Below the pieces are notes generated by a model, which ran no database searches, had not been told where the DNA came from, and saw only the letters and a program-made list of their open reading frames with translations. Positions 1 to 29,545 of a stretch of 64,000 bases of DNA are shown one piece after another (the stretch's first letter is position 1; every line of letters starts with the position of its first letter). The DNA comes from Lentisphaera araneosa HTCC2155 (GTDB lineage Bacteria > Verrucomicrobiota > Lentisphaeria > Lentisphaerales > Lentisphaeraceae), in assembly GCF_000170755.1 (NCBI RefSeq), contig NZ_ABCK01000007.1, positions 124,001 through 188,000 on the forward strand, given 5' to 3'. Made by a program: the position numbers and the translations under genes.

Positions 1-1728
1 TTTATTGGTTTTTGAGAGGTCGATATTGAGTTTTTTATCGTCATACTGAATAGAGATTTTACTGGCATCAATCAGTCTATTGGAGCGCTTGATAAGCGTT
101 TTTAAAATAGTTTTTTTTATTTCATTTGAGTCTGAATTTTGAATGAAATAGAGACAGGCCATTTGCTCAAGCTGGATATAATTGAGATCCTCGATGAGCT
201 TAAAAAGATTTTTTTCATCAAGAGATTGAATGCCTTTAAATTTTTCTAAAGTTTTGAGGAAATGACTAGTGTAAACTTCCAGCCTTTCAGCTTTTATGTA
301 GTCATAGGCTTGAGCGTATTTTTGACTGATGAAATGAAGCTCAGCAATTAAGACTTTAGCGGGGGTATAATTCCGATCTCTTTTGAGGGTGAGTTGACTT
401 TGTTCATAGGCTTTTTTAAAGGCCCCGAGTCGCATCGAATTGAGCGATTTTTCGTAAAGTGCTGGGGCAGCTTCAACACTCACTGCAGAGACGACTTTTT
501 GCTCTTGTTTATAGAGCTCGAGTGCTTGAACGGCTTTGGCTTCATTTTGAATAGCCAGCAAAGCATTTGATTCAGCAAGTCCTTTTTGTTTAAGGGCATG
601 GCGTTCACTCACTTTGATTTGGTAGACAAATAAGCACGAAGCGATAATGAAAATCATACAGGCTAGGCTTAAAATTTTATGGCGCTTGATCAGTAGATGA
701 GCAAGTTGTACAAAGCTGGCGTCTTCTGCATCAGTGGCAAAGCCCTCACGCCATTTAATAATATCTGTACGCAGATCAGCGACCTTGTTATAGCGTTGGC
801 CTTTTTCTTTACTCAGCGCTTTCATTGCAACAGCCGCCAAACTTGCAGGAATCTTGAATTGGGAATTGCGAACTTCGCCAAGGTCGCGTATCTGACCATT
901 AAGGGTGAGTTGCAAACATTCATTTACATCATCGTGAGAGCAAGGTGGGCCAAAGGAAAGTAAAAAATAGAGGATGCCACCTAAGGCGTAAATATCGCTC
1001 TGATAGTCTTTATTACCAAACGCAGAATCAATTTGTTCGGGAGCTAAGTAACCAGGTGAGCCTTTAATGAAACCGTCTAAGGTAATATCGTTAATTATAT
1101 TGGGATCCAGTAACAAATCGTCCTGTGTTTCATCTTCGTCATCATCTTCAGTTACAATTTTGGCGATGCCCCAATCACAGACCAAAACTTCACCATATTT
1201 TCCCATGCGGATATTGGCAGGTTTGAGGTCAAGATGGATGATGTTTTTGGAATGAGCGTACTCAATAGCATCACAGATCTTAAGAAAAATATCGATGGCT
1301 TGCTGCAGTGAAAAATCACCGGGGCAATTTTTAATCATTTGTTCGAGGTTTTCGCCTTCCACAAGTTTCATGGTGAAGTAAGCCTGACCATCATCATTAA
1401 TACCAGCATCATATACGGGAATAATATTGGGGTGTTCTAATGAAGCGGTGAGAAAGACTTCACTAAAAAAGCGTTCTGAGCGTTCGGCTTCATCCTGATC
1501 AATGAGTTCAGCTAGAGCAATTTCACGCGAAGTCATGGCATCGTGAACTTTAATAATTTTTTTTGATCCGCCACGATCAATACTTTCTTGTTGGCTATAG
1601 CGTTCGGTACAATTTTGGATGCCATCTAAAATCGGATGTACTTGGTCGACACTTAACTTCTTATCGAGTAAGCCATCGACTTCGAGAAAGTCTTGATAAA
1701 ATTCTTCGTTACTAATCTTTTTTGGCAT
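1..1728 (-). CDS. Membrane-anchored Ser/Thr protein kinase, WNK-like lysine placement (C-terminus cut by window edge)
   Basis: Reading leftward from an ATG at 1728, the frame stays open for 576 codons to the window edge, so the C-terminus is missing. The kinase domain spans about residues 45-310: glycine loop with GGSKK (53-57), HLDLKPAN around 165, DWG in place of DFG, and SPGYLAPEQ in the activation segment. The beta3 strand reads REIALAEL, so the normal catalytic lysine is Ala73. A lysine sits at 56 in the glycine loop, 17 residues upstream, the same spacing as WNK1 Lys233 to Cys250. HRD is changed to HLD but the Asp is kept. One membrane segment lies near 349-367, followed by a charged, helical, possibly TPR-like C-terminal region. 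This predicts a cytoplasmic kinase domain and an exported sensor region. It is a paralogue of the kinase at 8803-10815. Confidence 0.88.
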   Translation of the reverse strand, partial: MPKKISNEEFYQDFLEVDGLLDKKLSVDQVHPILDGIQNCTERYSQQESIDRGGSKKIIKVHDAMTSREIALAELIDQDEAERSERFFSEVFLTASLEHPNIIPVYDAGINDDGQAYFTMKLVEGENLEQMIKNCPGDFSLQQAIDIFLKICDAIEYAHSKNIIHLDLKPANIRMGKYGEVLVCDWGIAKIVTEDDDEDETQDDLLLDPNIINDITLDGFIKGSPGYLAPEQIDSAFGNKDYQSDIYALGGILYFLLSFGPPCSHDDVNECLQLTLNGQIRDLGEVRNSQFKIPASLAAVAMKALSKEKGQRYNKVADLRTDIIKWREGFATDAEDASFVQLAHLLIKRHKILSLACMIFIIASCLFVYQIKVSERHALKQKGLAESNALLAIQNEAKAVQALELYKQEQKVVSAVSVEAAPALYEKSLNSMRLGAFKKAYEQSQLTLKRDRNYTPAKVLIAELHFISQKYAQAYDYIKAERLEVYTSHFLKTLEKFKGIQSLDEKNLFKLIEDLNYIQLEQMACLYFIQNSDSNEIKKTILKTLIKRSNRLIDASKISIQYDDKKLNIDLSKTNK

Positions 1729-1846: not shown

Positions 1847-3214
1847 TCAACGATTTCGGTTAGAGGGACCACCCCACCACTTGTTATCGGGGAGTTTGCT
1901 ATCCCATTGGTCGAATTTGGCTTGTAACTTTTGAGCGATTTCAGGATGTTTATGAATGAGGTTGTTTTTTTCATTGGGATCATCTTTTAAATTGAATAGC
2001 ATGGGGGTACGAGGGCCATTGTAATCATTCCAGGTCAATTTCCAATCCTTGTCACGAATGGCGTAATCATCATCGCGTCGCCAGTACAAAGTTTTGTGAG
2101 GCCTGCTAGTTTTTTCTCCTGTAATATAGGGCATTAAGTTGACGCCGCTTAGCTCTTTTTTTGCAGGGGCTGCTTGGCTTATGTGAATCAGCGTGGGAAC
2201 AATATCTAAGCCACTGACGGGGTGTTGATAAGTCGATTGTTTGGGAATGACTTGAGGCCAGCTCATGATATATGGCACTCGAATGCCTCCTTCGTAAGTG
2301 TCGCCTTTACGGCCTCTAAGGCTGCCGTTACTTGCTAAGTAATCACCGGCTCGTTCAGCTTCATGTAAATTATTGGGTGCACCATTATCGCTCATGAATA
2401 TGACGAGAGTATTTTCGTAGATACCTTCATCTTTAAGAGTTTGGATAAGACGGCCCACGCCATCGTCCATAGAAATCAACATGGCGCTATAAATACGGCG
2501 CCATTTCTTTTTGATGTGATCTGAGCGCTGGAGATCTTTGGGCTGAGCTTCCCAAGGGCCATGGACAGAATTGTATGACATGTAGAGGAAGAAAGGCTTA
2601 TCTTTGTTGCGTTTGATAAAATTAACGCCTTCGTCATTGAAGACCTCTGTGGTATAGCCAGAAAAGGGGACGGGCTCATTATTACGAAAAATTGGCCAGG
2701 TCATTGGAGCGCCTTTCATATCCATTTTAGCTTCACGGTAGGAGTGGGCACCATTGAGAAAACCATAATAATAATCGACCGAGCGTTGAGTCGGGCGTTG
2801 TTCGTGACTTAAGCCCATGTGCCATTTACCGATAACTCCGGTGGTGTAAGCAGCGGGTTTGAGTAAATCAAAAATCATTTGCTCGTCTAGGGGAATGCCT
2901 GCATCTGGAAAGCGTTTACTGAGTTCGCCGGTTTCGGGAGGGTTTTCACCCGAACCGAAAAGCTGTTGATAACGCCCCGTTAAAAGTCCGGCACGGGAGG
3001 GACCACAGACAGAAGCCGATTGATAGCCTTGGGTGAAATTCATTCCCGAGCGAGCCAAAGCATCTATGTGAGGTGTTTTTATATCCGGTGCACCCAAGAA
3101 GCCTAAGTCTTCATAACCTAAATCATCGGCGAGAATGAGAATGATATTTGGTTTTTGCGCAGCAAGAGCCAGAGTTGAGTAAGTAAAGAATATAAGTGAA
3201 AAAATAAGTTTCAT
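1847..3214 (-). CDS. Secreted sulfatase (arylsulfatase / N-acetylgalactosamine-6-sulfatase type)
   Basis: This 455-residue protein has a signal peptide (about 1-19, ending ALA-A). Sulfatase signature one is CGPSR with Cys70, the residue converted to formylglycine in this family, followed by AGLLTGR. Asp30/Asp31 (LADDLGY) and the later SDNG are the expected metal-binding positions. Family knowledge predicts hydrolysis of sulfate esters, most likely on algal or animal polysaccharides outside the cytoplasm; the substrate cannot be read from the sequence. It lies 38 bp downstream of a pseudopilin gene on the same strand and is probably co-transcribed with it. No sulfatase-maturing enzyme gene is in the window. 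Confidence 0.93.
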   Translation of the reverse strand: MKLIFSLIFFTYSTLALAAQKPNIILILADDLGYEDLGFLGAPDIKTPHIDALARSGMNFTQGYQSASVCGPSRAGLLTGRYQQLFGSGENPPETGELSKRFPDAGIPLDEQMIFDLLKPAAYTTGVIGKWHMGLSHEQRPTQRSVDYYYGFLNGAHSYREAKMDMKGAPMTWPIFRNNEPVPFSGYTTEVFNDEGVNFIKRNKDKPFFLYMSYNSVHGPWEAQPKDLQRSDHIKKKWRRIYSAMLISMDDGVGRLIQTLKDEGIYENTLVIFMSDNGAPNNLHEAERAGDYLASNGSLRGRKGDTYEGGIRVPYIMSWPQVIPKQSTYQHPVSGLDIVPTLIHISQAAPAKKELSGVNLMPYITGEKTSRPHKTLYWRRDDDYAIRDKDWKLTWNDYNGPRTPMLFNLKDDPNEKNNLIHKHPEIAQKLQAKFDQWDSKLPDNKWWGGPSNRNR

Positions 3215-4049: not shown

Positions 4050-6992
4050 TCACAATTGAATTTTCACTGAGTAGACTTTTTCACTAGCTAAATCAATAGA
4101 AAAGCTCTTTCCAGAGGGCTTTTGTTTTTTGCCATTAATTTCAAGAGATTTAATATTTTTCGGCAAAACGACAGTGAGCTTCTGAGCGTGCTTAGTTTGT
4201 AAGTCGGCGCTGACAATTGTGCCATTTTTAGACCAGCTCATTTTCCGGATGTTAACCGCTCCGCGTCCTTGCATACCGAGGATTTCTCCCTCAGGCCATT
4301 CCCTTGGTAAGGCGGGGAGAAGTTTGAGAACTCCAGGGCGTGAAGTGAAAATCATTTCCTGAACTGCCGAGACCCAGCCCATGTTAGATTCGATTTGAAA
4401 AATAGGCGCCTGATTCATGGTGAAACCACTTTCTCGCCAGTCATTATGCGTTGTTAGCAAGTTTTCTAAGACTGAACTCGCGGCTAACCATTTGAGTGTT
4501 TGGTAAGCTTTTTGAGCTTCGCCACCTCGCGCTAAAATATTGGTATTGTGAAGTAATGACCAAGCCGATTGGAACTCAAGACCAGCATTTAAACGATTGT
4601 GAGATGTTTGCACAAAGGCATTAAAGAGTTTGGGGTCAGATTCTTCCATATTAATCTCATAGCCAGGCATAATAGGGTACATGTGAGTTAAGTGACGGTG
4701 GGCAGGGTTATCGTAAAAGCCATCGACTAACCATTCGCGGACACCACCCTCGGCATTAATTTCATAGGGACGTAATTTTGCAATAACTTCCTTCCAATCG
4801 GCAATTTTCGATTGATTGATAGCAAGGGTATTGGAAGCTTCAATTAAGTTGGTGAACATTTCGCGAATAGCCGCGTATTCCCATGTGGCATTTATGTGAG
4901 TATCGATGTGACGATTGGGTATGAGGCGATGACCTTCGGCGTTTAGCGGGGAGTTTTCTGGTGAGTTAGAAGGCGTGATATCGTAGAAGCCATCTTCGTT
5001 TTCGATGAGAAAGCCTTCGTAAAAAGTCGCGGCTTCTTCCATGAGTGGGACAGCGCGTTCAGCTAAGAATTTTTTGTCTAAAGTAAAGGTGTAGTAATCC
5101 CAGTAATGCTGAGCAACCCAAGCATTATTACCCATCATGTGGATGAGGTGCGGAGAAATGACTTTTAAGAGGCCATCTTCATTATTTCCCAATAGAGGAT
5201 TGATGTAAATGCCATCAAGGCCGTAGAGTTTACGGGCATTCTCTCGTGAAGCGGGAAGTTGACGATCGAACATATCAAAGAAAGGCAGCATGAGTTCCGA
5301 CAGGTTGCCATCCATGAGGTGCCAGTGAATCATTGGCATATTGATATTCATGAGGTGAATCGCCCAGGTAGGATTGTAATCACCATTCCAAAGGCCCGTC
5401 AAATGAACGGGGTGTCCACCTTTTCTTGAGCCCACAATCGACAAGTAGCGACCCATAGCCCAGAGACGTTCGACGAAGGCGTTTTCAAGATCGAGCTTTC
5501 TTGCTTTCGCAATGAGTTCTTCATTACTGAGGGCACGATCATCTTTTGAAGCTTTAAGATCAACGGAAGCAGCGTTGAAGAGTCCCTGATGGGCTTTTAC
5601 ATGTGGATTTAAGTAAGTCTGATAAGTGCCTTTTAACTTATACAATTCTCTCGTTATGCGATCAATGGCTTCATCGGCATCGGCAGAGTTAAAGGTTTTG
5701 ACCGCAATTAAAATTTGGCTTGCGCCTTTAATTTTGACGTGATCGATTTCTTCCTTTAACTCGCCATCATGAGAAATGACGCGAGCCACTGCGCCAAAAT
5801 CTTTGAGTGCCGATGTGGTATTAGGGTTAAGAGCTTTATACTGGATGTGGCCGGCAAAGTCGACATTTACCGATGGACGAAAGGCTTTTGGTCGACTACC
5901 GCGAGCTTTGTCGGGATTGTGTAAGCCAAGGTGCACGGAGATATCTAAGGCTTTTGCTTGCTTAGCATTTAGCTGAACAAATAAGACATCTTTACTATCA
6001 CCAATGCGTGAGATGAAGGCCTTGCGTGTGTAGTCAACACCCTCATTTGACCAAGCCGTATGAGTTTCTGATTTTTTCAAATCGAGTGTGCGCTGATATT
6101 GGCTAATGTTTTTAGCGTTGGAGCGAATGACTAAATCGCCAATCGAGAGCGGTGAGCCGATGTTAGCCCGATAGTTTTTACCCTTGAATGCGTTACGATA
6201 GAGCACATTTGCATCGGCATATTTCCCCTGTTTCTGAAGGTCGCGGACTTGCTGTAGCAAACCAGATAGGTCGGGCATAGTGCTTGAGCTAGCATGGTTG
6301 AACCAATGGCGCGCATCCTGAAGCATGAATCGTGCTTCATTGACATCGCCATAAACCATCCCGCCTAAACGGCCACTACCAATGGGGTAGGCATCCCGCC
6401 AATGATCTTTTAATTCCTCTTTCTTAAAAGGGCCCCAAGTCCAGTTTGCCGGCTTTGAACTTCTTAAAATATAATCGGGACTGTGATTCGAAGAAATTGT
6501 TTCTCTTGACGTTTCAATAGGGAGATTAGCAATTTTTTTCACTTGGAGCGCACGAATATTCAAGGCTTGCCATTGATCCCTATGAGGATTCAAGGTGAGT
6601 GAATTGCGCCCCTTTTTGAGTGCGATCGTTGCAAATTTTTTATTTATATACTTGTCGTAGGAGCCCGTTCCTTTTACATCAACTTTAACTTTTTCATCGT
6701 TATAATTTAAAAAGAAACCTGAATGGGGCGCTGTCGAAGAAACTTCTGACCAAACTTCATAGAGTCCCGCTTCTGGAGCGACAAAAGTCCAGCTTGCCCA
6801 AGAATCTTCACTGGTCCAATAGGCGAGGTTGGGGTTGGTATCTTTACTACCAACACCTAAAGAACCTTTGCCAACATTGACGATTTGACTATCTTCGGGT
6901 TTGAGTTGGATGGCTTCACTGGCACTTATAGTGAAAAATGAGCTGAGGGCAATTCCGTGCACAAGACGGGGGAGGAGGCGATTTAGTTTCAT
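4050..6992 (-). CDS. Secreted glycoside hydrolase family 95-like enzyme (alpha-L-fucosidase/galactosidase family)
   Basis: This 980-residue protein has a signal peptide (about 1-26). An N-terminal beta-sandwich-like module (about 28-155) resembles carbohydrate-binding or DUF-type sugar-binding domains. The GH95 N-terminal domain follows (from about 190; AYPIGSGRLGGMVYGDV matches the family opening PIGNGRLGAMVFG). The (alpha/alpha)6 barrel contains LMNINMPMIHW, equivalent to the family ININTEMNYW segment with its two catalytic-site Asn residues, and WVAQHYWDYYTFT, where many GH95 enzymes have QHLWEHY. The C-terminal beta domain includes LLPALPREWPEGEI. GH95 enzymes cleave alpha-1,2-fucosides or related L-galactosides from polysaccharides. 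With two sulfatases in the window this fits use of sulfated fucose-containing glycans, but the substrate is inferred. It starts 53 bp after the pseudopilin at 7046-7717 and is probably in its operon. Confidence 0.85.
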   Translation of the reverse strand: MKLNRLLPRLVHGIALSSFFTISASEAIQLKPEDSQIVNVGKGSLGVGSKDTNPNLAYWTSEDSWASWTFVAPEAGLYEVWSEVSSTAPHSGFFLNYNDEKVKVDVKGTGSYDKYINKKFATIALKKGRNSLTLNPHRDQWQALNIRALQVKKIANLPIETSRETISSNHSPDYILRSSKPANWTWGPFKKEELKDHWRDAYPIGSGRLGGMVYGDVNEARFMLQDARHWFNHASSSTMPDLSGLLQQVRDLQKQGKYADANVLYRNAFKGKNYRANIGSPLSIGDLVIRSNAKNISQYQRTLDLKKSETHTAWSNEGVDYTRKAFISRIGDSKDVLFVQLNAKQAKALDISVHLGLHNPDKARGSRPKAFRPSVNVDFAGHIQYKALNPNTTSALKDFGAVARVISHDGELKEEIDHVKIKGASQILIAVKTFNSADADEAIDRITRELYKLKGTYQTYLNPHVKAHQGLFNAASVDLKASKDDRALSNEELIAKARKLDLENAFVERLWAMGRYLSIVGSRKGGHPVHLTGLWNGDYNPTWAIHLMNINMPMIHWHLMDGNLSELMLPFFDMFDRQLPASRENARKLYGLDGIYINPLLGNNEDGLLKVISPHLIHMMGNNAWVAQHYWDYYTFTLDKKFLAERAVPLMEEAATFYEGFLIENEDGFYDITPSNSPENSPLNAEGHRLIPNRHIDTHINATWEYAAIREMFTNLIEASNTLAINQSKIADWKEVIAKLRPYEINAEGGVREWLVDGFYDNPAHRHLTHMYPIMPGYEINMEESDPKLFNAFVQTSHNRLNAGLEFQSAWSLLHNTNILARGGEAQKAYQTLKWLAASSVLENLLTTHNDWRESGFTMNQAPIFQIESNMGWVSAVQEMIFTSRPGVLKLLPALPREWPEGEILGMQGRGAVNIRKMSWSKNGTIVSADLQTKHAQKLTVVLPKNIKSLEINGKKQKPSGKSFSIDLASEKVYSVKIQL

Positions 6993-8802: not shown

Positions 8803-10815
8803 TCATTTGATGGTTATTTGTAGGGGAGAATTTGGAAACTTTTTCGTCCAGATTTTATACTGGTTTTTATTGAGTATAAGCTTTTCGAGATGAGGAAAGT
8901 GGTTCAGAGGATCGAGTGATTGAACTGAACTTTGGCTAATATCGAGGGTGTGAAAATTCAGGCCATGAATTTGAGTGAGATCTAGCTTGGAGCTTTGGAT
9001 AAAAGTTAGTTTGTTTATCGGTAGAAGGCGCAGGATAGTCAGCGTTGAATGACGGTAGAGTATGGGAGATTTTAAATTTATCAGTTCCTTAGAAACAATA
9101 CTTAAATGATGCTGTGCTTTGTTGTAGTTTAAACCCTTTTGGTCCCATTGCGGATTCCATAATTTTAGAATCGCTGAGATTACTGGAAGGAGATCGTAAT
9201 TATTAGGGGAAGCCTGATAATAGGCGAGCATTTTTTCAGCTAAATTAAAACGTTCCTTAACGGTGAAATTACCTACTAATTCTGCAAAATCTGAGGGCTT
9301 TAATAAAGCGTTTTTTTCTAGTCTTGGCGCATATTTTTCACTGAGTCTCACAAGGTCTGAGACGAGTTCTGGACGATAATTTAAGGCCTTTATTTCATTA
9401 AACTTTTGGCATATAAAGAAATTGTATACCAGTTGAGTATTTATGTAAGCATCGTCGGGTTTTACTTTTTTAATTTCCTGGAGTTGGGAGAGAGCATATG
9501 CCATTGAGCTTTTTGGGTTTTTGTAAACAAAGTGATCTGAATAATTTCTAATGCTTTGCCAATAAAGTTTTCCAATTTGTTGAGAATTCTTTTTTAATTC
9601 ACTTAAACGAGATTCAGCCAAGGCTTCGGCGCGGCGGGCCTGGTGAGCATTGTCGATAGCCTGATCTTTATTTTCTTCTGACAGGGAGTGAAGAGTTTTT
9701 ATCTGGTCAATTTTTCCCTGCAGTCTGCCAATGAAAAACAAAGTTAGCGCAGTAACTAAAACAATGGCAATGGCAATAATGATTGAACTCGCTTTATTGC
9801 GTTTAATAAAGAGCTTGGTTTCCTGGATGAGGCCAGCATTTTCGGCCAAGGTAGCGTAGCCATTGATGTACTTTTTCAACTCATTTTGAAGTTCTATAAC
9901 TGAGTCGTAGCGATCTTCAGGATTCAGAGCCATCGATTTGTTGATAACTGCTTTTAAAGGCAGCGGACATTTTTTGAGGGTAGGAATATTACCTTTTACA
10001 GTGATCTTGAGAATTTCATCAAGATCAAAGCCTTCAAGAGGAGCTTTCAAGGACATTATTGCATAGAGTAGGCAACCCAAGGAGTAGATGTCAGATTGAG
10101 GACTTTTAGGATGCTTGCTGTCGATTTGTTCCGGGGACATATAGCCCGGGGTACCTTTGATTTTGTTGTGCTGAGTTAGGTTATTGAGCAGGTCGGGATT
10201 AAACAGCGCTTCATCCAGGCTGTCGTAATCCGCTTCACCGACAATTTTACTTAAACCCCAGTCACAGATGAGGACTTCACCATAGTCACCTATCTGTATA
10301 TTTTCCGGCTTGATATCTAGATGGATAACATTTTTTTGGTGTGCGTAGGCAATGGCATCGCACACCTTTATAAAAATGTTGATAAGCTCCGCAGTGTTGT
10401 AAGTTGCCCTATAATTTTGATCTTTATCAAGCAGTTTTGCGATGATATCTCCAAGTGAATCACCACTCTTTAAATCCATGGTGAAATAAGGCTGATCCTT
10501 TTCGTTCAATCCCAGGTCGTGAATGGGCATGATGTTGGGGTGATCCAGTCGGGCAGTGAGTTTGGCTTCCCTTAAAAAAACCTCGTAAAGGCTTTCATCG
10601 ATATCTCTCTTGGGGGTGGCGTAGGCAATGGTGCGCTCACATTTTTTATCGAGAGCTCGATAAATATTTTTCATGCCACCTGAAGCAATAATTTCCTCGA
10701 GCTGATAGCGTTCTGATTCGGCAGAATAGTGTACTCCTGTTTCGCTTTTTTCACTTAGCTCTTCCTTGTAGAGCGCAGAAAATTCATGACCAAAGTCCAA
10801 ATCGTCCATGTTCAT
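8803..10815 (-). CDS. Membrane-anchored Ser/Thr protein kinase with LRR-like tail, WNK-like lysine placement
   Basis: This 670-residue protein has its kinase domain at about 37-315. The glycine loop reads GGMKNIY with Lys49; beta3 reads RTIAYATP, so the usual lysine is Ala66. The spacing Lys49-Ala66 is 17, as in WNK kinases. The alpha-C Glu is present in FLREAKLTARLDHPNI. The catalytic loop is HLDIKPEN near 165 (Arg of HRD is Leu), the metal motif is DWG, and the activation segment has TPGYMSPEQ. A membrane segment lies near 342-362, followed by a coiled-coil stretch and helical repeats. The last 80 residues have leucine-rich-repeat-like spacing (LDISQSSVQSLDPL). It starts 1 nt after the stop of an ECF sigma gene, so the two are translationally coupled. 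It may phosphorylate the sigma factor or another regulator; catalysis itself is unproven. Confidence 0.9.
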   Translation of the reverse strand: MNMDDLDFGHEFSALYKEELSEKSETGVHYSAESERYQLEEIIASGGMKNIYRALDKKCERTIAYATPKRDIDESLYEVFLREAKLTARLDHPNIMPIHDLGLNEKDQPYFTMDLKSGDSLGDIIAKLLDKDQNYRATYNTAELINIFIKVCDAIAYAHQKNVIHLDIKPENIQIGDYGEVLICDWGLSKIVGEADYDSLDEALFNPDLLNNLTQHNKIKGTPGYMSPEQIDSKHPKSPQSDIYSLGCLLYAIMSLKAPLEGFDLDEILKITVKGNIPTLKKCPLPLKAVINKSMALNPEDRYDSVIELQNELKKYINGYATLAENAGLIQETKLFIKRNKASSIIIAIAIVLVTALTLFFIGRLQGKIDQIKTLHSLSEENKDQAIDNAHQARRAEALAESRLSELKKNSQQIGKLYWQSIRNYSDHFVYKNPKSSMAYALSQLQEIKKVKPDDAYINTQLVYNFFICQKFNEIKALNYRPELVSDLVRLSEKYAPRLEKNALLKPSDFAELVGNFTVKERFNLAEKMLAYYQASPNNYDLLPVISAILKLWNPQWDQKGLNYNKAQHHLSIVSKELINLKSPILYRHSTLTILRLLPINKLTFIQSSKLDLTQIHGLNFHTLDISQSSVQSLDPLNHFPHLEKLILNKNQYKIWTKKFPNSPLQITIK

Positions 10816-10816: not shown

Positions 10817-11419
10817 TTAGAATAACTCGCGTTCAGATTTTAGGAGCTGAATTTCTTTGACTAGGCGGTTTTTTACACGATTTTTGAGCTGGATGACAGT
10901 GTTGGCTTTGAGATCAAAATTCTCAGCAATGACTTTAGTCTCGGTATTTTTCATGGCCATTTTGAAGACATCGATGGCCTTGCCGGAAAACATGGCACTG
11001 ATATTCTCCAGTGCTAGGTTGACGATATGGGCTTCCCATTCTTTTTGAAAGACTTTTTCAACTTCCGGTTCAGTGAAAGAAGTTAATTCACTTGGATCAT
11101 TTTTGATGAGGGCCTCTTTTTTGTCGGATTGGCATTTTTTCCGGTAAAAGTCCATGGTTCGGCGATAAATAATCTGGCTGAACCAGGTGCGAAATTTAGC
11201 GCGTTTTTCGTCGGGCTTAAAGTTTTTTAAGGATTTCCAAAGTGAGAGTAGGATTTCCTGTACAAGGTCCTCTTTATCGCTTTGGTTGAGTTTGAATTTA
11301 GAAAGGACGATGAGGATGAAGGAGTTGTAATAGGTTTGAAAGTCTTCCCAGGCTTTCTGGTCATTGTCGTTTTTTAAACGATCCAAAAGTGTGTAGCGGG
11401 TATTCCATTGGGAAGTCAT
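10817..11419 (-). CDS. ECF-type RNA polymerase sigma factor
   Basis: This 200-residue protein has sigma region 2 at about 30-95 (KEDLVQEILLSLWKSLKNF, then RAKFRTWFSQIIYRRTMDFYRKK) and region 4 at about 135-190 (VFKMAMKNTETKVIAENFDLKANTVIQLKNRVKNRL). These match ECF sigma factors, which bind core RNA polymerase and read alternative promoters. No anti-sigma gene is adjacent; instead the next gene is the transmembrane kinase, an arrangement seen in PVC bacteria and suggesting kinase-controlled sigma activity. It is divergent from the pseudopilin at 11517. Confidence 0.88.
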   Translation of the reverse strand: MTSQWNTRYTLLDRLKNDNDQKAWEDFQTYYNSFILIVLSKFKLNQSDKEDLVQEILLSLWKSLKNFKPDEKRAKFRTWFSQIIYRRTMDFYRKKCQSDKKEALIKNDPSELTSFTEPEVEKVFQKEWEAHIVNLALENISAMFSGKAIDVFKMAMKNTETKVIAENFDLKANTVIQLKNRVKNRLVKEIQLLKSERELF

Positions 11420-13065: not shown

Positions 13066-14274
13066 ATGAAAAGAAGAGATTTTTTAAAGTTAAGTGCCCT
13101 TGGAGCTGCGGCTCCGATGAATTCATTTGCCGCAAAAAAAGAAGATGAATTCCGCGTAAAATTAAAGAAAAACGTCGTCCTCGTGAATTTGGACTTGGGG
13201 CTTTATGCGCCGCACTTTCGCGATAATGGTGCGGACTGTAAATACATGACCGAGATCTTTTTTGAGTTTAAAGGTAAGATGACCTATTTAGATGGCATTT
13301 CTGAGCCAGGCATGGGTGGTGGACACGAATGTCAGCCGGCAAGTTTTACAGCTTTGCGCTATGACCATCGCGATCTTTATACAACACGAAAAATGATGTC
13401 CCTCGACCAGAAACTGGCAGATGGTTCAGTCCAGGAAACTCGCCACAAATTTTTGTATCATCAAGTCAATCGAGGTAGTAGCATGAGTTGGAATCGCTTC
13501 GAGCAACCGATTCCAGCCATCTCAGGGGCAAATGAACTTTATGAACAACTCTTTGCGAGAACTGACAAAGATTTGGATAAGGCACGAATTCGTCGTGAGC
13601 GTGATATTTTGGCTGCCTTATCTCGAAATATTCGTCGTCAATGGACGGGGACACCTCAAGAAACTGACATGAAAAATTCTTTGGATTACCAAGTGGATCT
13701 TTTGGATGAACGGGAAAAATGGCTCAAAGTTAAAAAACCTTACTTAAAGAAAACTTTTGGAGAGAATGAGGAACGTAATCCACTCCCTTCATGCTCAAAT
13801 AATTTTGATTTAGTTCACGAAGCTTTAATGAAGCAACAGACAAAAATAGCTTTTGTTCAATTTGGAGGAGGTAGCTTACAAAGAGGTATGGGCTTTGAAC
13901 TTGGTCATCATGCCAATGGTCACCATGCGGGGTATCCAGAAAGAATTTACGCCTGTGAGCAAATTGATACCGCGGTGCTGACTAATGTCAGAAGATTTTT
14001 ACGTAAGCTGCAAGAGAGCAATATTTTCGATGATACCATTGTGCTTTTTCATTGTGGCATGGGCAATGCAGCCGCACATGATTCTCGCCGTACGGCATCC
14101 TTCCTTTTCGGCGGTGGCTTTGCCCATAAGAAATCTATTAAATGCCTCGAAGGCAAAAAAGAGCATATTTATTCGACCTGTAACCTATTCTCTAGTGTCT
14201 TGAAGCAGAGTGGTTTCAGAGACTATTCCTTTAATAGTAGCAAGGAAGTGATTCCTGAACTTTTTAAGGCCTAG
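13066..14274 (+). CDS. Tat-exported DUF1552 family protein, unit 1
   Basis: This 402-residue protein has an N-terminal KRRDFLK twin-arginine motif and a short hydrophobic signal ending near FAA. The mature part follows the DUF1552 pattern: a beta strand NVVLVNLDLGLYAPHF, then GMGGGHECQ, MSLDQ, SMSWNRFEQP, a central helical part (ARIRRERDIL, LDYQVDLLDEREKWL), then LGHHANGHH, VLFHCGMGNAAAHD and LFGGGF. DUF1552 proteins are abundant in Planctomycetes, Verrucomicrobia and Lentisphaerota and are nearly always paired with PSCyt/PSD cytochromes; their biochemical role is not established. It is first of four paralogues here and is followed after 9 nt by its cytochrome partner. Confidence 0.88.
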   Translation: MKRRDFLKLSALGAAAPMNSFAAKKEDEFRVKLKKNVVLVNLDLGLYAPHFRDNGADCKYMTEIFFEFKGKMTYLDGISEPGMGGGHECQPASFTALRYDHRDLYTTRKMMSLDQKLADGSVQETRHKFLYHQVNRGSSMSWNRFEQPIPAISGANELYEQLFARTDKDLDKARIRRERDILAALSRNIRRQWTGTPQETDMKNSLDYQVDLLDEREKWLKVKKPYLKKTFGENEERNPLPSCSNNFDLVHEALMKQQTKIAFVQFGGGSLQRGMGFELGHHANGHHAGYPERIYACEQIDTAVLTNVRRFLRKLQESNIFDDTIVLFHCGMGNAAAHDSRRTASFLFGGGFAHKKSIKCLEGKKEHIYSTCNLFSSVLKQSGFRDYSFNSSKEVIPELFKA

Positions 14275-14283
14275 GGAGAGCAT

Positions 14284-17200
14284 ATGTCAGAGCAAGAAAA
14301 TTTACCCGCAATGACCGCGGAACAAAAAGAAAAACTGCGTTTGAAAATTGCAGAATTAGAGAGTCTTGAGCAAGAAATTGCCGAAGGAAAAATTCAGGGT
14401 GATGAAGCCGAAAAACTCCTCGATCAATCGATGTTGGAAATCGAAGCTGTCTTAGCAGAAGCCAAAGAACTTGAAGCGCAACTCCCGTCAAGTGTTGATT
14501 CAAATACTGAAACTTCAGTGGCGAGTGAAGAGTCCATAAATCCTGCGGGAAGCGCAAAAGAAACGCCTCTTGCAGAGAGCGCAAAAGAGCAGGCTTTAGA
14601 AGACCTTCCTGTTTTAAAAGCGAGCGGGGGTTCATTAGCCAAGCAAGTATTTGACGAGAAGCAAGCGGAACAAAAGAAAGCACCAAATCAACTCGATCAA
14701 TCTTTGGATAAATTTGATGAGTCTTTAAAATCCGAGGTGAAGCAGCCAAACTTTGAGGATAAGCCGAAGCCTTTACAAACCAAGTCAGGGAAACGCAAAA
14801 AGGGAACGACTAAAAAGAAACTTAAAGCTCCGAGCAAACCCGTGATTCGCGAAAAGAAGAAAGCTTTCCCATGGGGTAAAGTCGTGGCCTTATTAGTGAT
14901 TGCGGGGATCGCATTATCTTATAAAGATATCATGGCTTTTGTTAAACAGCAGCAGGCTGAGCTCGCGGAAAAGAATAAGCCTAAAGCCGTGAAGAAAAAA
15001 GAAGAGGTAACACCCAAGCCTAAACCCAAGCCCGTTGTTGTTGAAAAGCCTGTAGAAACAGAGCCCGAAGAGGAGCCTCAGAATTTCTTTCAGCCGCAAG
15101 AAAGCGATGTGTTTACGGGTGAACTCGTTCACTACAGTTTTAATCAGGTGCTGAAAGATAAATGTGTGACTTGCCATGGCGCGGAAGGAAAAGAAGTCGA
15201 AGGTGATTTTAATATTGCCTTACTGATTAAGTCGCGGGCTTCTAATTCTAAAGCTTGGGCAAAAGTTTATCGCAGTATTGATAAGGGAGAGATGCCTCCA
15301 CCGAAAGAGGACTACGAAGATTCTGTAGAATTGAAAGGGGAAGAAAAAGAACTGTTGCTCGCTTCAATCAAAGATATGTTTGAAGAACTGAAAGAAGGTG
15401 TGGCGACTCGAGTCTTGACTCCCTACGAGTTAGAGAACACGATGAACGATCTTTTTGACATTGATGTGAGTATGTATAATCCTTTTAAGTCGATGCATCA
15501 GACCTATTCAAAAGAATCCTATTACACTCACCAGCGCAAGGTTTTGAGTCCTTATTACATAAGTCAGTATTACAATATCCTCTATGATGTCTTACAGAGC
15601 TTTATCGGTTTGCGCCCCCAAGTGGATAAGATGGATGTGAAAACGACTTTGCCTGGTTCAGTTTACGCTGCCAAAGCGTTTAAAAATGAAACTCATATTC
15701 GTTGGCCACAGAGCAAACCTAAGCTTCACACCGGCTTTAATTTTGAGGATAAAACCGAGCGCAAAGCGACCAAGCAAGACCGCTATTTAGATGGCAATGA
15801 AAATGAACTCGTCAATAGCGTACTCGCGAAACGGACTTTACCTCCAGGGACCTATAAACTGACTTTTAAAGCTAGTACTGAAAACATGTCAATGAGCAAG
15901 ATTACAGAGAAGAAGTATGGTGAAGAAGTGGTGCGCATTTTTGATGAATACTTTGATCAAAATCCCAATCTCGCCATGCCGCTACATTTTCACTTAGAGC
16001 CACCAGATTTTGCGGATCCTTTTGCTCGAGGTAAATTTCTCGAGACCATTGAGGTTTCTTCTGAGGGTGAATACGGTATTGAATTCACTTTGCGTCGTCG
16101 CTCGGCCTTGGCCTGTAACACGACGGCAAAACTGCCTGCTCAACGTCAATTAGCCAATTTGATTTCTTATCACAAACATGGTGACAAGCACGAAAATAAA
16201 ACCATGCAGATCGAGATGAAAAACCTTTCTCAAAAAAGGTATGATTTCCCCATGATCAAGATCTCGAATTTAAAGATTGAGGGGCCGTATAATGTTCAGT
16301 TAAACCCCCTCTCTTTCAAAGAAGAGCAAAGGCTCAATAGTGATACGGAAATACGTGAGAAATTCCGCTATCTACACGCTTTTAACGGCATGAAATTTAA
16401 TGTAATCTACACCTACCTCTTTCGAGACTTCCAAAAAGATAAAATGAAGTACGAAGATGCTTACCGCAATGCCATGATCATGTTCTTTATGTCGCCAAAA
16501 TTTTTGATTCTCAATAGCGAACCCAAAACAATTGAGCAGAAAGTGCGTTACCTCTCTTATGCAGCTCACAAGTCAGCGCCTTCGCATGAATTTCATAAAT
16601 CATATTCAGATTTAAAGAAGCGCAAAGATGCCCTTGGACTTGGGAAATGGTTGATTGATCACGATCGCTTCCCGCGTTTTGTGCAAGCTTTTACTTATCA
16701 ATGGCTCAAGTTGGGAATCATTGAGCAAAACCAACCCGATACGGGAAAATACAGAAACTACTACAAAGATAATTTAGCCGATGCACAGCGCCTTGAAGCT
16801 GAGTTTTATTTGATGAATATGTTTCGTGAAAATCGTCCCGTACGCGAGTTAGTGGATTCAGATTATTCCTTCTGGAATCAGGCTTTAGAAAATTTTTATA
16901 CAGGTTCTTATCAGGGGCAAGAAAGTGATGATCTAGAAAACTTCGTGAAACGCTCTTCAAAAAATCAGCAACGCGGTGGTATCCTAACGATGGGGTCCTT
17001 TTTAACTGCCACGGGCAATGGCGTAGATCCACTGCCCCTTCGTCGTGCAGCCTGGATATCTGACAACCTATTGGATTCGCCTTTGCCTTCACCGCCCGAT
17101 GTGGATGTGGTTGATTTTGAGAATGAACGCAGTGGAAAAACACTTCGTGAACGCCTCGCCGTGCACGCTGAGAATCCCGCCTGTCATTCCTGCCATAAAC

Positions 17201-17511
17201 GTTTGGATTCGCTCGCGATTCTCATGGATAAATTTGATTCGATTGGCGGCTATAATAATCATTATAATCCCGAAGTCGTGAAAGTGAATGGAGAGAATAT
17301 TAACGATATCGAGGGCTTGAAAAAGTACTTGGGTGAATATGATCAGCCCATGGCGCGAGCCTTCACTCGCAAACTGATTAGCTTCATGATGGGGCGCGAA
17401 GTTGGCGTCAAAGATGAAGCGGTACTCGACGCCATTCTCAAAGCGACGGAGGCCGATGGCTACCGCGTTGGCGACCTCTACTCCCAGATTGTTAAGTACT
17501 ACTTATTTTAA
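14284..17511 (+). CDS. Membrane-anchored diheme PSCyt/PSD protein (DUF1587/1592/1588/1585), unit 1
   Basis: This 1,075-residue protein opens with an acidic helical cytoplasmic region (1-170, two predicted coiled helices), a Lys-rich stretch, one membrane span (about 196-214) and a Lys/Pro spacer (KPKPKPKP). Heme motif one is CVTCH at 294-298 in the PSCyt1 domain. DUF1587 follows (LTPYELENTMNDLFDID), then a beta-rich sugar-binding-like part, DUF1592 (YLHAFNGMKFNVIYTY onward), DUF1588 with LPLRRAAWISDNLLDSPLPSPP and heme motif two CHSCH at 967-971, and DUF1585 (ARAFTRKLISFMMGRE). Usual family members start with a cleavable signal peptide, so the cytoplasmic extension and anchor are unusual. A periplasmic electron-transfer role with the DUF1552 partner is inferred. 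Confidence 0.88.
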   Translation: MSEQENLPAMTAEQKEKLRLKIAELESLEQEIAEGKIQGDEAEKLLDQSMLEIEAVLAEAKELEAQLPSSVDSNTETSVASEESINPAGSAKETPLAESAKEQALEDLPVLKASGGSLAKQVFDEKQAEQKKAPNQLDQSLDKFDESLKSEVKQPNFEDKPKPLQTKSGKRKKGTTKKKLKAPSKPVIREKKKAFPWGKVVALLVIAGIALSYKDIMAFVKQQQAELAEKNKPKAVKKKEEVTPKPKPKPVVVEKPVETEPEEEPQNFFQPQESDVFTGELVHYSFNQVLKDKCVTCHGAEGKEVEGDFNIALLIKSRASNSKAWAKVYRSIDKGEMPPPKEDYEDSVELKGEEKELLLASIKDMFEELKEGVATRVLTPYELENTMNDLFDIDVSMYNPFKSMHQTYSKESYYTHQRKVLSPYYISQYYNILYDVLQSFIGLRPQVDKMDVKTTLPGSVYAAKAFKNETHIRWPQSKPKLHTGFNFEDKTERKATKQDRYLDGNENELVNSVLAKRTLPPGTYKLTFKASTENMSMSKITEKKYGEEVVRIFDEYFDQNPNLAMPLHFHLEPPDFADPFARGKFLETIEVSSEGEYGIEFTLRRRSALACNTTAKLPAQRQLANLISYHKHGDKHENKTMQIEMKNLSQKRYDFPMIKISNLKIEGPYNVQLNPLSFKEEQRLNSDTEIREKFRYLHAFNGMKFNVIYTYLFRDFQKDKMKYEDAYRNAMIMFFMSPKFLILNSEPKTIEQKVRYLSYAAHKSAPSHEFHKSYSDLKKRKDALGLGKWLIDHDRFPRFVQAFTYQWLKLGIIEQNQPDTGKYRNYYKDNLADAQRLEAEFYLMNMFRENRPVRELVDSDYSFWNQALENFYTGSYQGQESDDLENFVKRSSKNQQRGGILTMGSFLTATGNGVDPLPLRRAAWISDNLLDSPLPSPPDVDVVDFENERSGKTLRERLAVHAENPACHSCHKRLDSLAILMDKFDSIGGYNNHYNPEVVKVNGENINDIEGLKKYLGEYDQPMARAFTRKLISFMMGREVGVKDEAVLDAILKATEADGYRVGDLYSQIVKYYLF

Positions 17512-17610
17512 AGCTGTAAGCCTTAGCCGCTTCAAGAATATAGAGGCGAGTTATTAGGTATAAAACTTTTCATAATTAGGTTGAATAGAGGTCATGATGC
17601 TTTGCATACG

Positions 17611-17695
17611 AGAAGGACGCTGTCCCTCTCGAGCTCTCCCTGCAAGGATTTGCCAATCCTTGACCAGGCGACTAGGGGACTTTGCCCCGCTTTTT
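17611..17695 (+). terminator. Cluster of three small hairpins, the last with a U tract, after unit 1
   Basis: Three inverted repeats lie in a row: GGAC-GCT-GTCC (17615-17625, extendable), CAAGGATT-TGCC-AATCCTTG (17643-17662, perfect) and GGGG-ACTTTG-CCCC (17675-17688) followed by GCTTTTT. The last may terminate unit 1, although it is about 165 nt past the stop. The whole block could instead be an interspersed repeat. The rest of 17512-17926 is AT-rich and I see no other feature in it. Confidence 0.5.
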
Positions 17696-17926
17696 GGGTA
17701 ATTATAAAAAATTAAATCATTCATTTAATGAAGCCTTTCTTTGTCACAGAGTGAGAAAAGAAGGCTACCGACCTAGTACTATTTGGTAATCTGATATTTT
17801 TTAACTACTTGAGTTAAGATGTGAGTCATTAGTCTGTAGTTCTTTCAAAAAATATTCAAAAACGCTTACGATTAGTTGTTTATAATTCAACGCGTACACC
17901 TGTTTTTTAAAAAATGGAGAATTGAT

Positions 17927-19144
17927 ATGATTGACCGAAGATCGTTTTTAGCTTCAGCTATTGCTGGGGGACTCATTCCTGCAAATGGCATTTATGGGGC
18001 TTCCAAAAAAATTGAACCAAGAGTGAGTCTTAAGAAAAATATTGTTCTTTTGAGTTTAGATTTGGGACTCTATGCACCTAATTTCAGGGATAATGGCGCG
18101 CGCTGTAAATACATGACCGAGATTTTTTCTGAATTTAAGGGGCAGATGACCTACTTCGATAGTATTTCCGAGCCGCATATGGGCGGTGGGCACTCATGTC
18201 AGCCAGCGACTTTTACAACGATCTCTTATAAAAATCGGCAACATTACCCTGAACGCAAAATGATCAGTTTAGATCAGATTTTGGCCGATGGATCCATTCA
18301 AGAAACACGTCACAAGTATATTTATCATACCATAAATCCTGGCTCTACTATGTCGTGGAATCGCTTTGAGCAACCCTTGCCTGCAGTTGAGGGTGCCAAT
18401 AATTTGTATGAAACGCTTTTTGCGCGCACTGATGCTCGGCTCGATAAAGCAAGAATTCGTCGTGAGCGAGATATTTTAGCGACACTAGCGCGAAATCTTC
18501 GGCGTTATTGGGTGGGCAACCCTCAGGAAGTGGATATGCGGGCTTCTCTGGATTATCAGCTTGCCATTTTGGATGAGCGTGAAAAGTGGCTCAAGGTCAA
18601 GCAACCCTACCTCAAAAAGAGCTTTGGAGAAAAAGAAGAACTTAAACCGATTCCCTCCTGCCACAATAATTTTGATCTCATTTATGATGCATTGGAGAAA
18701 CAACAGACCAAAATTGCTTTAGTTGAGTTTGGTGCTGGTCGTCTCAACCAAGGCCTGTCAGGAGTTGAACTCGGTCACCATGGCAATACCCATCACGGGG
18801 GATATCCAGAAAGAATTTACGGTCTAGAAACTATCGATAGGGGCGTCTTGAATGGAGTTAAATATTTCTTACACAAGCTTCAAGAAGGTGGACTTTATGA
18901 TGATACGATTGTTCTCTTTCACTGCGGCATGGGCTATGCGACTTACCATACAAATAAAAAGGCCCCAGCACTTTTATTTGGCGGTGGCTTTAATCACAAA
19001 GAATCAGTTCAGTGCCTCAAAGGGCCTAAGGAGCATCGTTATGGTACAGCCAATCTATTTTCATCAATTTTAAAGCACGCGGGCTTCAAAGACTGGACTT
19101 TCCAGACTCAAAATAAATTGATTGATGAACTTTTTGAGGCTTAA
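17927..19144 (+). CDS. Tat-exported DUF1552 family protein, unit 2
   Basis: The protein has 405 residues from the ATG at 17927, chosen because GGAGA lies 7 nt upstream and the protein then begins MIDRRSFLAS, a twin-arginine signal; an in-frame start 51 bp earlier would bury that signal. DUF1552 landmarks are the same as in unit 1: NIVLLSLDLGLYAPNF, HMGGGHSCQ, SMISLDQ-equivalent, TMSWNRFEQP, ELGHHGNTHHGGYPERI, VLFHCGMGYATYH and LFGGGF. Only 3 nt separate its stop from the next start. The upstream region contains ACGCGTAC but no correctly spaced TTGTCA, so it may depend on another promoter or on read-through. Confidence 0.87.
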   Translation: MIDRRSFLASAIAGGLIPANGIYGASKKIEPRVSLKKNIVLLSLDLGLYAPNFRDNGARCKYMTEIFSEFKGQMTYFDSISEPHMGGGHSCQPATFTTISYKNRQHYPERKMISLDQILADGSIQETRHKYIYHTINPGSTMSWNRFEQPLPAVEGANNLYETLFARTDARLDKARIRRERDILATLARNLRRYWVGNPQEVDMRASLDYQLAILDEREKWLKVKQPYLKKSFGEKEELKPIPSCHNNFDLIYDALEKQQTKIALVEFGAGRLNQGLSGVELGHHGNTHHGGYPERIYGLETIDRGVLNGVKYFLHKLQEGGLYDDTIVLFHCGMGYATYHTNKKAPALLFGGGFNHKESVQCLKGPKEHRYGTANLFSSILKHAGFKDWTFQTQNKLIDELFEA

Positions 19145-19147
19145 TCG

Positions 19148-22100
19148 ATGAGTACAGGAAACCTTTCGGGGGGGGATATTCCCGGCTTAACTCGCGAACA
19201 AAAAGATTTATTAAGTAAAAAATTAAGCTACCTTGAAGACTTAGAGCTCCTGTTGGCGGCAGGTGAAATGAAAGGTGATGAAGCCGATGCTGAATTAGCG
19301 AAGACTTTAGCGGAAGTTGAGGCTATCATGGAGGAGGGGCGCAAGCAGGCTGAGTTAGAAGATGAGCTTGTCAAACTCCAGAAACTCGAAGAAGAGTTAG
19401 CTGCTGGAGTAGGTGAACCCGCGGAACTCGAAAAGGCATTAAGTGCCCCAACTAGCGAAGTTTCGTCAGGTGATCAATTGGATTCAATAGCTACAGATCC
19501 CATTCAGCCTAAAACAAATTCTGACGCCAAAGAAATCATTGAACCAGACCTAGAAAGTTTGCCTCGCTTAAGTCATTCGAAAGTTCACCAAAGTAATACA
19601 AGTGCCGAAGCTAAGGCAACAAAAGTGAAAGAAGAAGCCTTGCAGAAAGTCAGTTCAAGAACGGTGGGTGAGCAGAGTGATAAATCCAATCCTGACCCCA
19701 AAAATGAGCTTAAAGAAGCGCAAAAAAATAATCCAACTAGGCTTAAAACTAAGTCGAATACTGATAAAGAAAGTGCAGCACGCAAAGTTAGCCGAGCTAA
19801 ATCCAAAGGGAAGCCTAAGCTCAAAGTGCCCACAAAAATCCCAAGAGCTCGCCAGAAAAAGAGATTTCCTCTTGCTACAATTTTGTTTCTGATTCTTTTA
19901 GGGGCAGGGGGCTTTTATCATCAGCAAATTATGGATTTTGTTAAGACAATGCAGGAGGATGTGGCCTATAAGCCAGCGCCTGAAAAACCTCGTAAAAAGC
20001 CTGTTGTTCAAGTCAAGCCAGAACCCAAGCCAGAAGCTAAACCCGAGCCAGCGCCTGAGCCCATTAAGGAAAAGGAAGCAGAAGAAGCGCAGAATTTTTT
20101 TCAGCCAAACGAGGAAAATATCTTTACTGGCGAACTTAAGCATTATAGCTTTAATGAAGTTCTCGCGAACAAATGTGTGACTTGTCACGGTGCCGAAGGC
20201 AAGGAAGTGGGCGGTGATTTTAATATCCTTAGACTGATGAAATCTAGTGCGGTTAACGCAAAATCTTGGGCAAAAATTTATCGTGCGATTGATAAAGGCG
20301 AAATGCCACCGCGCATTAAGGATGAACCGGAGTCCGTGCCACTCGAAGTGGAAGAGAAGGAACTGGTGCTCGCCTCGATTAAGACGATGTACCAAGACTT
20401 GAAAGAAGGTATGACGACTCGCGTGCTCACGCCCTATGAAATCCAGAATACGCTAGGGGATTTATTTGAGATTGATTACGAGCAGTACAATCCATTGGCC
20501 AGTATGCATCAATCGTATTCAGAAAAGACTTTTTACACTCATCAACGCAAAATTTTGAGCCCACATTACTTGAGCAATTACTACAATCTTCTCTACGATA
20601 TTTTACAGAGTTTTATTGGACTTAGGCCCCAGGTTGACCCCCTGGATTTGGAGACCAAATTTCGTCAAGTTGGAGCGGTTCACTACAGTTTTAAAGATGA
20701 GTCGCACCTGCGTTGGCACATAGCGAGTAAACTCGTCACTCTAAATTTTAAGGACCTTGGTGAAAAGAAAGAAACAAAGCAAGATCGCTATTTAGATGGT
20801 AACGATAATCAATTAGTCAATAGTATGCTTGCCGCAAAATCTATCCCCCCCGGAACTTATACATTGCGATTTAAGGCCAGTTGTGAAAATATGTCCATGA
20901 GTAAAATCACTGAAGAAAAGTACGGCAAAAAAATTGTTGGGCATTATGAAAAGTTTTTTGAAGAAAATCTCAACCCAGTTCTGCCAGTTAAGTTTTATCT
21001 CGAACCCCCTGGTGTTGCCGATCCTTTTGCTAAACGGAAATATCTAGAAACTGTTGAAATATCATCCGAAGGCGAATATGCGATTCAATTTGTCGTGACG
21101 CGGCGCTCAGGAGTCGCTTTGCATTTAGATGAGCCAGGGATTATGGGGCAGGGCCATTTAGCTAGAAATATAGGCTACCATAGGCACGGGGAGCAATTGG
21201 AACTGAAGCAAATTGAAGGCATCAGTGCAGAACTCGGTAAAAAAGAGTTCGATTTTCCCATGGTGAAGTTTAGCGACGTTAAACTGGAAGGCCCCTTTGA
21301 GGTGAAGTTAAACCCCTTGTCATTTGATGAAAGAACCAAAATTAATGATACCGAAGTTCGTGAGAAATTTAAGTACCTCCATAGTTTCAATGGCATGAAG
21401 TTGAGTGTGATTTACACCTACATGTTTAGAGATTTGAGAAAACAAAAAATGAAAATGGAAGATGCTTATCGCAATACCTTGATCACCTACTTTATGTCTT
21501 CTAAGTTTCTTATTTTGAATTCGGCGGCGAAGAGTCTCGATGACCAGATTCGCTTCTATTCTTATGCAGCCCATAAATCACCTCCCAATGAGGATTTTCA
21601 GAAGGTATACACCTCTGCTTTAAGGGGGAAGAATCATATGAGTTTGGGAAAATGGCTCATAGATCACGAACGCTTTCGCCGCTTCAATAATGCCTTTACT
21701 TATCAGTGGTTAAAGCTTGGAGAAATTAGTAATAACCTACCCGATGAAGGAAAGTTTAGAGATTACTACCGCAAGAACTATGCCGACCTTCAGCAGAAAG
21801 AAGCTGAGATGTTTATGATGAACATGTTTAGAAAGAATCGGCCGATCACAGACTTAGTGAATGCAGATTACACTTTTGTGGATAAAGATTTGAAGGATTT
21901 TTACGGAATTCATTCCGAGGCAAGCTTTGGTACAGGTGAGTTTGCTCTGTTGAAAACCGGCAGTTCAGGGCGTGGTGGAGTTCTTAGTATGGGAGCTTTT
22001 CTCACTGCCACGGGCAATGGTGTGGATCCCCTTCCCCTTCGTCGTGCGGCGTGGATCTCTGAAAATATTTTGGACTCGCCTCTGCCCTCTCCTCCCGATG

Positions 22101-22510: not shown

Positions 22511-22523
22511 TTTATCAATAATT

Positions 22524-22592
22524 GGGCTACAAGATAAGAGTTGAATAAGGCAGGGTTCATTCTGAATACCTTGCTTGTAGCTTGGCCTTATC
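22524..22592 (+). other. Possible structured RNA or nested inverted repeats between unit 2 and the HAD gene
   Basis: CTACAAG (22527-22533) pairs with CTTGTAG (22574-22580), extendable by G-U pairs. GATAAG (22533-22538) pairs with CTTATC (22587-22592) in an interleaved, pseudoknot-like order. An inner stem TTCA/TGAA with flanking GCAGGG/CCTTGC lies inside. No U tract follows. It could be a transcript-end structure or chance. Confidence 0.25.
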
Positions 22593-22633
22593 ACTATTAA
22601 ACTGAGTTTAATTAAATTAATTCAGGATGATTT

Positions 22634-23263: not shown

Positions 23264-23601
23264 TGCTCCACTTACACGAACAATGATTAAATTTTTTTGA
23301 AAAAATCAATTTCTTTGTCTAAGTCTTTTAGGTTGAACCGTCTTTGATAGCAAGAGTTGAATAAAATCATTGATTTAATTCTTCTTTTAGCCGAAAGAGA
23401 AATAAGATCTGCAGATTCAGTACAATAAGTATAGGGAACTTATTTACTTGGTACGAAGTCATTTTTAGTTCGAATGTGAGTATCTAGTTGGTAGTTCATA
23501 TGAAAAATATAATAAAAAGTAATTTATTTTTGTGATGATTTGTAACTTTAGTGATTTTTTCTGGTTAAGGTTTATAAAGAATGTTATAAAATATGACAAA
23601 T

Positions 23602-23630: not shown

Positions 23631-23667
23631 TATAGGTAAGCATAGAATTATTTTTGGAGATTGTAAG

Positions 23668-24882: not shown

Positions 24883-24890
24883 GTTTTAAG

Positions 24891-29533: not shown

Positions 29534-29545
29534 GCTTAAGATTAG

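Follow-up and report, generated by a model that had tools for sequence, protein, structure and literature searches.

WNK and, later, POMK came to be known as functional protein kinases without the beta3 lysine (K72 in PKA numbering). In 2007, WNK was described as the only such functional family (PMC1821047), and a lysine in strand beta2 is essential in both WNK1 and POMK (PMC10211241). In bacteria, serine/threonine protein kinases (STPKs) are known to act on extracytoplasmic function (ECF) sigma factors: EcfP is activated by PknT (PMC8999054) and EcfK by PknS (PMC13147305), and the former source also has kinase-ECF activation as a prediction for the planctomycete families ECF59, ECF61, ECF62 and ECF217, with Rhodopirellula sallentina as the listed example of ECF62. 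Here we analysed two Ser/Thr kinase genes, K1 and K2, in a window of 64,000 nucleotides of Lentisphaera araneosa HTCC2155 (contig NZ_ABCK01000007.1; G000:C7:124001-188000), whose genome of 6.0 Mb has 105 Pfam kinase matches. In both kinases the beta3 lysine is replaced by alanine and a lysine stands in the glycine loop, as in WNK, and both belong to a large group of paralogues with the same exchange.

The relocated lysine of K1 and K2

The original prediction, which was made from the sequence of the window, had placed a lysine in the glycine loop of both kinases exactly 17 residues ahead of an alanine at the beta3 position, and had compared the pair with Lys233 and Cys250 of WNK1. The codons of all four residues were found where it had put them (Table 1). 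Alignments with PknB (phmmer) and with WNK1 and PknB together (MAFFT; the WNK1 sequence was verified against PDB 5w7t) set Lys56 of K1 and Lys49 of K2 on G55 of PKA, which is K233 of WNK1, and Ala73 and Ala66 on K72 of PKA, which is C250 of WNK1, confirming both the offset and the equivalence. The relocated lysine takes the place of the third glycine of the glycine loop in both kinases. The catalytic-loop Asp, the DWG Asp and the alpha-C Glu are kept, as had been stated, and so is the catalytic-loop Asn. In the AlphaFold2 (AF2) models, which had a predicted local distance difference test score (pLDDT) of 87 for K1 and 88 for K2, Lys56 and Lys49 open beta2 while Ala73 and Ala66 lie within beta3. 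A different lysine at the beta3 position, the outcome that had been named as speaking against the idea, was not seen; neither model has a lysine in beta3.

Table 1. Positions of the kinases, their active-site residues and the neighbouring genes in the window
Feature	Position	Strand	Basis
K1 Ser/Thr kinase	1..1728	minus	ORF (open reading frame) list; PF00069 6e-34; 3' end outside window
K1 Lys56 (PKA 55, WNK1 K233 equivalent)	1561..1563	minus	codon AAA; alignments
K1 Ala73 (PKA 72, beta3-lysine position)	1510..1512	minus	codon GCT; PknB alignment
K1 Glu90, alpha-C glutamate	1459..1461	minus	codon check; 133/133 in swapped class
K1 Asp167, catalytic-loop Asp (HLD)	1228..1230	minus	codon check, alignment
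K1 Asn172, catalytic-loop Asn	1213..1215	minus	codon check, alignment
K1 Asp185 of DWG	1174..1176	minus	codon check, alignment
K1 predicted transmembrane segment	619..693	minus	hydropathy
K2 Ser/Thr kinase	8803..10815	minus	PF00069 4e-37; full-length alignment
K2 Lys49, relocated lysine	10669..10671	minus	codon AAA
K2 Ala66, beta3-lysine position	10618..10620	minus	codon GCC
K2 Glu83, alpha-C glutamate	10567..10569	minus	codon check
K2 Asp167, catalytic-loop Asp	10315..10317	minus	codon check
K2 Asn172, catalytic-loop Asn	10300..10302	minus	codon check
K2 Asp185 of DWG	10261..10263	minus	codon check
K2 predicted transmembrane segment	9730..9789	minus	hydropathy
Sulfatase gene, upstream of K1	1847..3214	minus	PF00884 6e-61
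GH95 glycoside hydrolase (alpha-fucosidase-type family), same gene run	4050..6992	minus	PF22124 5e-91
ECF sigma factor, proposed K2 partner	10817..11419	minus	PF04542 6e-12; pairing statistics

Both kinases have the alpha-C Glu, the HxDxKxxN, DxG and APE motifs and the subdomain IX Asp of Hanks-type kinases, and depart from that type at the beta3 lysine, where they have alanine; WNK is accepted in the kinase superfamily despite the same exception. A Foldseek search with the AF2 model of K1 gave PknB as the top structural match in the PDB (1o6y, TMt 0.91, root-mean-square deviation 2.0); the leading matches were PknB, PknA and Stk1, and WNK was absent from the top 50. The K1 gene, which crosses the window start and has 664 codons from stop to stop in the genome, encodes a cytosolic kinase domain (approximately residues 40-320), one transmembrane (TM) segment and a C-terminal region. 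In K2, the kinase domain and TM segment are followed by a helical region and a short C-terminal leucine-rich stretch, which was also found in K1 and in a planctomycete homologue by full-length alignment.

Reciprocity, distribution and origins of the swapped kinases

The 106 kinase domains of the genome were aligned and reclassified with outside sequences into 61 K55/A72 kinases (hereafter swapped), 34 with K72 and 11 that were divergent or truncated. Beta3-lysine loss and glycine-loop lysine gain, the count of which had been proposed as a check, went together strictly: K55 was present in 61/61 of the A72 kinases and in 0/34 of the K72 kinases (Fisher 1e-26, the paralogues not being independent), and none of the 95 alignable kinases had both lysines or neither. 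Scale is the sole element that was missing from the original prediction, as K1 and K2 are two of about 61 paralogues. Across the genome and the outside sequences, E91 was retained in 133/133 swapped domains, as were D166, N171, D184 and D220 in each of the 132 aligned domains. The Arg of HRD was replaced by Leu (HLD) in 81 swapped domains and kept in 51, mainly of the Chloroflexota type. In a 36-sequence alignment of both swapped groups, Lys55 was the only invariant lysine of the N-lobe; a compensating lysine elsewhere in that lobe was rejected, none being invariant.

The outside set had first been obtained using a motif pattern, and homologues were therefore fetched again by protein similarity alone, without ASCERTAINMENT. 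In this motif-blind set, the Victivallis-type orthologues, one per genome, were K55/A72 in 30 of 30 cases, with Lys55 encoded by AAA in 15 and by AAG in 15. The kinases of 14 Lentisphaeria genomes without the DNA pattern had K72 and, at residue 55, G, A, S or N; the lone exception was a divergent second ORF of a locus, which also lacked the catalytic Asp of DxG. The nearest homologues of a Chloroflexota member comprised 28 A55/K72 and two K55/A72 kinases. Neither a sequence that combined the two lysines nor one that lacked them while keeping the rest of the active site was seen. A Chloroflexota kinase (L240) combines K55 with Ser at 72, so other small residues are tolerated. One swapped kinase of L. 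araneosa (G000:C7:243434-245602; L062:935-3103) is split by an internal TAA and adjoins an intact ECF gene; it is apparently a pseudogene or a sequencing error.

The list of carriers rests on the matches listed in a scan of the genome collection, and the true breadth is larger. As counted by the DNA pattern, five of the six Lentisphaera-family genomes have approximately 30-60 copies and the sixth has five; one genome of another family has 14, and two large families of the class typically have one. Named carriers of the PVC (Planctomycetes-Verrucomicrobia-Chlamydiae) superphylum among the matches listed were Kiritimatiellales, Pontiella, Victivallis, Lentisphaera araneosa, Akkermansiaceae, Verrucomicrobiia and Rhodopirellula. 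A second swapped type, 'LGEGGKKKVYLAHDTLLDRDVAFALIKTE', has HRD and DFG, frequently occurs in fusion with AAA ATPase and TPR domains and in some cases with cyclase domains, and was found, among the matches listed, in Chloroflexota, Deltaproteobacteria, Solirubrobacter, Mycobacterium and Acidimicrobiales. The phylum-wide tally by DNA pattern (112/388 genomes) was not used, being inflated by a non-kinase protein of approximately 376 aa. This protein, 'GAMK[CG]V.ST.DLD..SLVAKA' (L101, L171, L173 and similar), is conserved and mimics the DNA pattern of the kinases without having kinase motifs.

In a tree of 99 rows, from which columns 55 and 72 had been removed, the PVC swapped kinases grouped with conventional HRD..DWG paralogues of the same genome, and the Chloroflexota-type group formed its own clade elsewhere. 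The likelihood improved when the PVC swapped kinases were held together. A first two-tree test of a single bacterial origin against an imperfect free tree gave p=0.077; when constrained trees were compared, the approximately unbiased (AU) test rejected a clade uniting all bacterial K55/A72 kinases (p=0.0016), as well as one of swapped bacterial kinases that included WNK1 (p=7e-5), the exact AU values being soft because the searches (LG+F+G4) were short and the branches long. The fold search, in which PknB came first and WNK was absent from the top 50, likewise contradicts descent from WNK. An independent bacterial arrangement, as originally proposed, is supported by the PknB-type sequence and fold, the rejected WNK1 clade, the invariance of the relocated lysine and the retention of all other catalytic residues. 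Bacteria appear to have invented it at least twice rather than once; judging from the trees, the lysine swap arose separately in two bacterial groups and in WNK. Two kinases of L. araneosa, L028 and L029, have K72 yet lie inside the swapped clade of the free tree, each with an adjacent ECF gene, and are possibly reversions or basal members.

Sigma-factor pairing and neighbouring genes

An ECF gene immediately precedes K2 in the same orientation, with a 1-base gap; that of K1 is convergent and lies just beyond the window (G000:C7:123206-123406). Sigma70_r2 genes within 2.5 kb were counted in both orientations, as same-strand upstream genes alone undercount the pairing. Such a gene accompanied 52 of the 61 swapped kinases compared with 5 of the 34 conventional ones (Fisher 1e-11), 35 being directly upstream on the same strand and 12 convergent downstream of the swapped kinases. 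Genome-wide, there were 90 Sigma70_r2 matches, and 58/90 sigma genes were beside a kinase. A TM segment was predicted in 59/61 swapped kinases, approximately 37 residues past the kinase domain. Swapped kinases have ECF neighbours in Kiritimatiellales, Pontiella, Verrucomicrobiia and Akkermansiaceae as well, and at the Rhodopirellula sallentina locus, as read from the ORF sequence, one lies directly upstream. Kiritimatiellota, Verrucomicrobiota and Planctomycetota are the further phyla in which the pairing was seen. The full-length architecture, including the short C-terminal leucine-rich stretch, is common to the PVC phyla examined. Most partner ECFs keep a D/E-x-E/D-D (DAED-like) motif, which is DKED in the ECF of the window.

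Ahead of K1 lie the sulfatase gene, which likely belongs to a regulated degradation locus, two pilin-like genes and the GH95 enzyme. Among the matches listed, a sulfatase occurred within 10 kb of 32 of the 61 swapped kinases compared with 3 of the 34 conventional ones. The genome has at least 150 sulfatase genes (340 candidates). Elsewhere in the window (13066-32929) there are four clearly paralogous tandem pairs, each of a DUF1552 (HXXSHH)-type gene, assigned by Pfam for the first of the four only, followed by a large gene of approximately 1070-1130 aa that carries the CVTCHGAEGKEV haem-like motif. The one swapped kinase of Victivallis-type genomes is encoded directly downstream of clpX (L147:1682-6302, L248-L277), the gene order at L147 being tig-clpP-clpX-kinase. 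A ClpX motif and the kinase were co-oriented in 27/34 loci checked, and in two further loci ClpX was present and the kinase motif was missed by the search; this adjacency hints at a link with Clp proteolysis.

Activity, function and comparison with known systems

K1 and K2 would be membrane-anchored, catalytically active PknB-type Ser/Thr kinases. In them, the lysine that binds the ATP phosphates would be supplied from the third glycine position of the glycine loop rather than from beta3, the WNK exchange reached by a separate evolution. The PVC-superphylum family to which they would belong consists of kinase-TM-sensor receptors whose genes usually have an ECF sigma-factor gene as a neighbour. 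A signal, for which we infer a glycan, would be sensed through the C-terminal region, upon which the kinase would phosphorylate or otherwise activate the partner sigma factor, its presumed substrate, and the sigma factor would turn on nearby polysaccharide-degradation genes, here those of the sulfatase and the GH95 enzyme. We consider this proposal as a whole quite probable. From the conserved active site, ATP binding through the moved lysine and kinase activity may be expected, and that K1 and K2 are active is our best inference.

Several observations weigh against the proposal. Within 2.5 kb of nine of the 61 swapped kinases there is no ECF gene, none was seen at the Chloroflexota-type loci examined, and the proximity of sulfatases was counted among the matches listed. 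As the partner ECFs retain the DAED-like motif, the ECF43 mechanism, in which the sigma factor is without an acidic motif, was rejected for them; the charge supply of PknT-EcfP is therefore not directly transferable, and the activating phosphosite, if any, must differ. Moreover, the HRD Arg is lost in most PVC members (HLD/HFD), as a pseudokinase could do. If the swapped kinases were pseudokinases, Lys55 would be structural or non-catalytic after the loss of K72, and the domain would transfer no phosphate but bind nucleotide or the sigma factor, for instance acting as an anti-sigma-like scaffold. Their physical linkage to ECF genes suits a binding role, and, with the beta3 lysine absent, the usual motif rules would score the class as pseudokinases (definition in PMC10211241). 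However, E91, D166, N171, D184 and D220 are fully retained across more than 130 divergent members, and every loss of K72 is accompanied by the gain of Lys55, in separately rooted groups. The same five residues decay in many pseudokinase families. We regard inactivity as improbable.

The kinases could also be active with the moved lysine while the swap itself serves regulation, the vacated beta3 site sensing anions or ionic strength and the ECF not being a direct substrate. Chloride binds at this site in WNKs; the same pocket is vacated here, and it is flanked by a conserved DWG[LI]. Marine bacteria or sulfated-glycan degraders are numerous among the carriers, and ECF linkage is no proof of phosphorylation. 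On the other hand, WNK has DLG where these kinases have DWG, and the swap is also present in the Chloroflexota-type and gut Victivallis members, which have no obvious link to salt. We hold this explanation to be very improbable. The most far-reaching reading, in which the WNK arrangement was invented at least twice in bacteria and founded a major PVC receptor-kinase/ECF class, active though scored by motifs as 'pseudokinases', with a vacated pocket that may sense an ion or small ligand, seems doubtful to us.

No prior report of bacterial WNK-like or Lentisphaerae kinases was found in the open-access literature; a 2025 review of bacterial pseudokinases mentions WNK for comparison only and gave no matches to Lentisphaer-, Planctomyc-, Verrucomicrob- or Chlorofle-. 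The class may have been recognised earlier in a 2019 pseudokinase survey or in the original 42-family bacterial kinase study, which that review cites. The swapped family is large and apparently unrecognised, with approximately 60 copies in the L. araneosa genome, most of them beside a sigma-factor gene. Since the swapped class is common and evolved independently, many bacterial kinases that look dead are probably active. Counts based on motifs would then wrongly class many of them as dead, and, given a bacterial family that reaches dozens of copies per genome and arose at least twice, lysine relocation would be a recurrent evolutionary route. Here it is tied to an ECF signalling module near sulfated-polysaccharide genes. 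Additionally, the dozens of paralogues with and without the swap that occur naturally in one genome are material for studying how such a lysine can move.

Among known systems, PknB and the other Hanks-type bacterial kinases are the closest in sequence and fold and share the TM receptor layout, whereas the swapped class has a relocated catalytic lysine and has lost the HRD Arg in most PVC members. The STPK-ECF pairs of ECF43 (PknT-EcfP, PknS-EcfK) likewise have the kinase gene beside the ECF gene, but the ECFs here keep the DAED-like motif; the available portions of the papers on those pairs (PMC8999054, PMC13147305) make no mention of a swapped lysine. In POMK and CAK-chloro, too, a basic residue moved to the glycine loop offsets the lost beta3 lysine (PMC10211241, PMC1821047), although both belong to other families with other substrates, and in CAK-chloro the moved residue is Arg and the alpha-C Glu is lost. 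With WNK the likeness is closest at the active site, comprising a lysine at PKA-55, a small residue at PKA-72, the spacing of 17, and the alpha-C Glu with all other catalytic residues kept. The bacterial kinases differ from WNK in having Ala instead of Cys at 72, a PknB-type fold and sequence, DWG, mostly HLD, a kinase-TM-sensor architecture and an ECF partner. K1 and K2 thus share the lysine placement of WNK without its descent, and are probably WNK-like in their working, but not WNKs.
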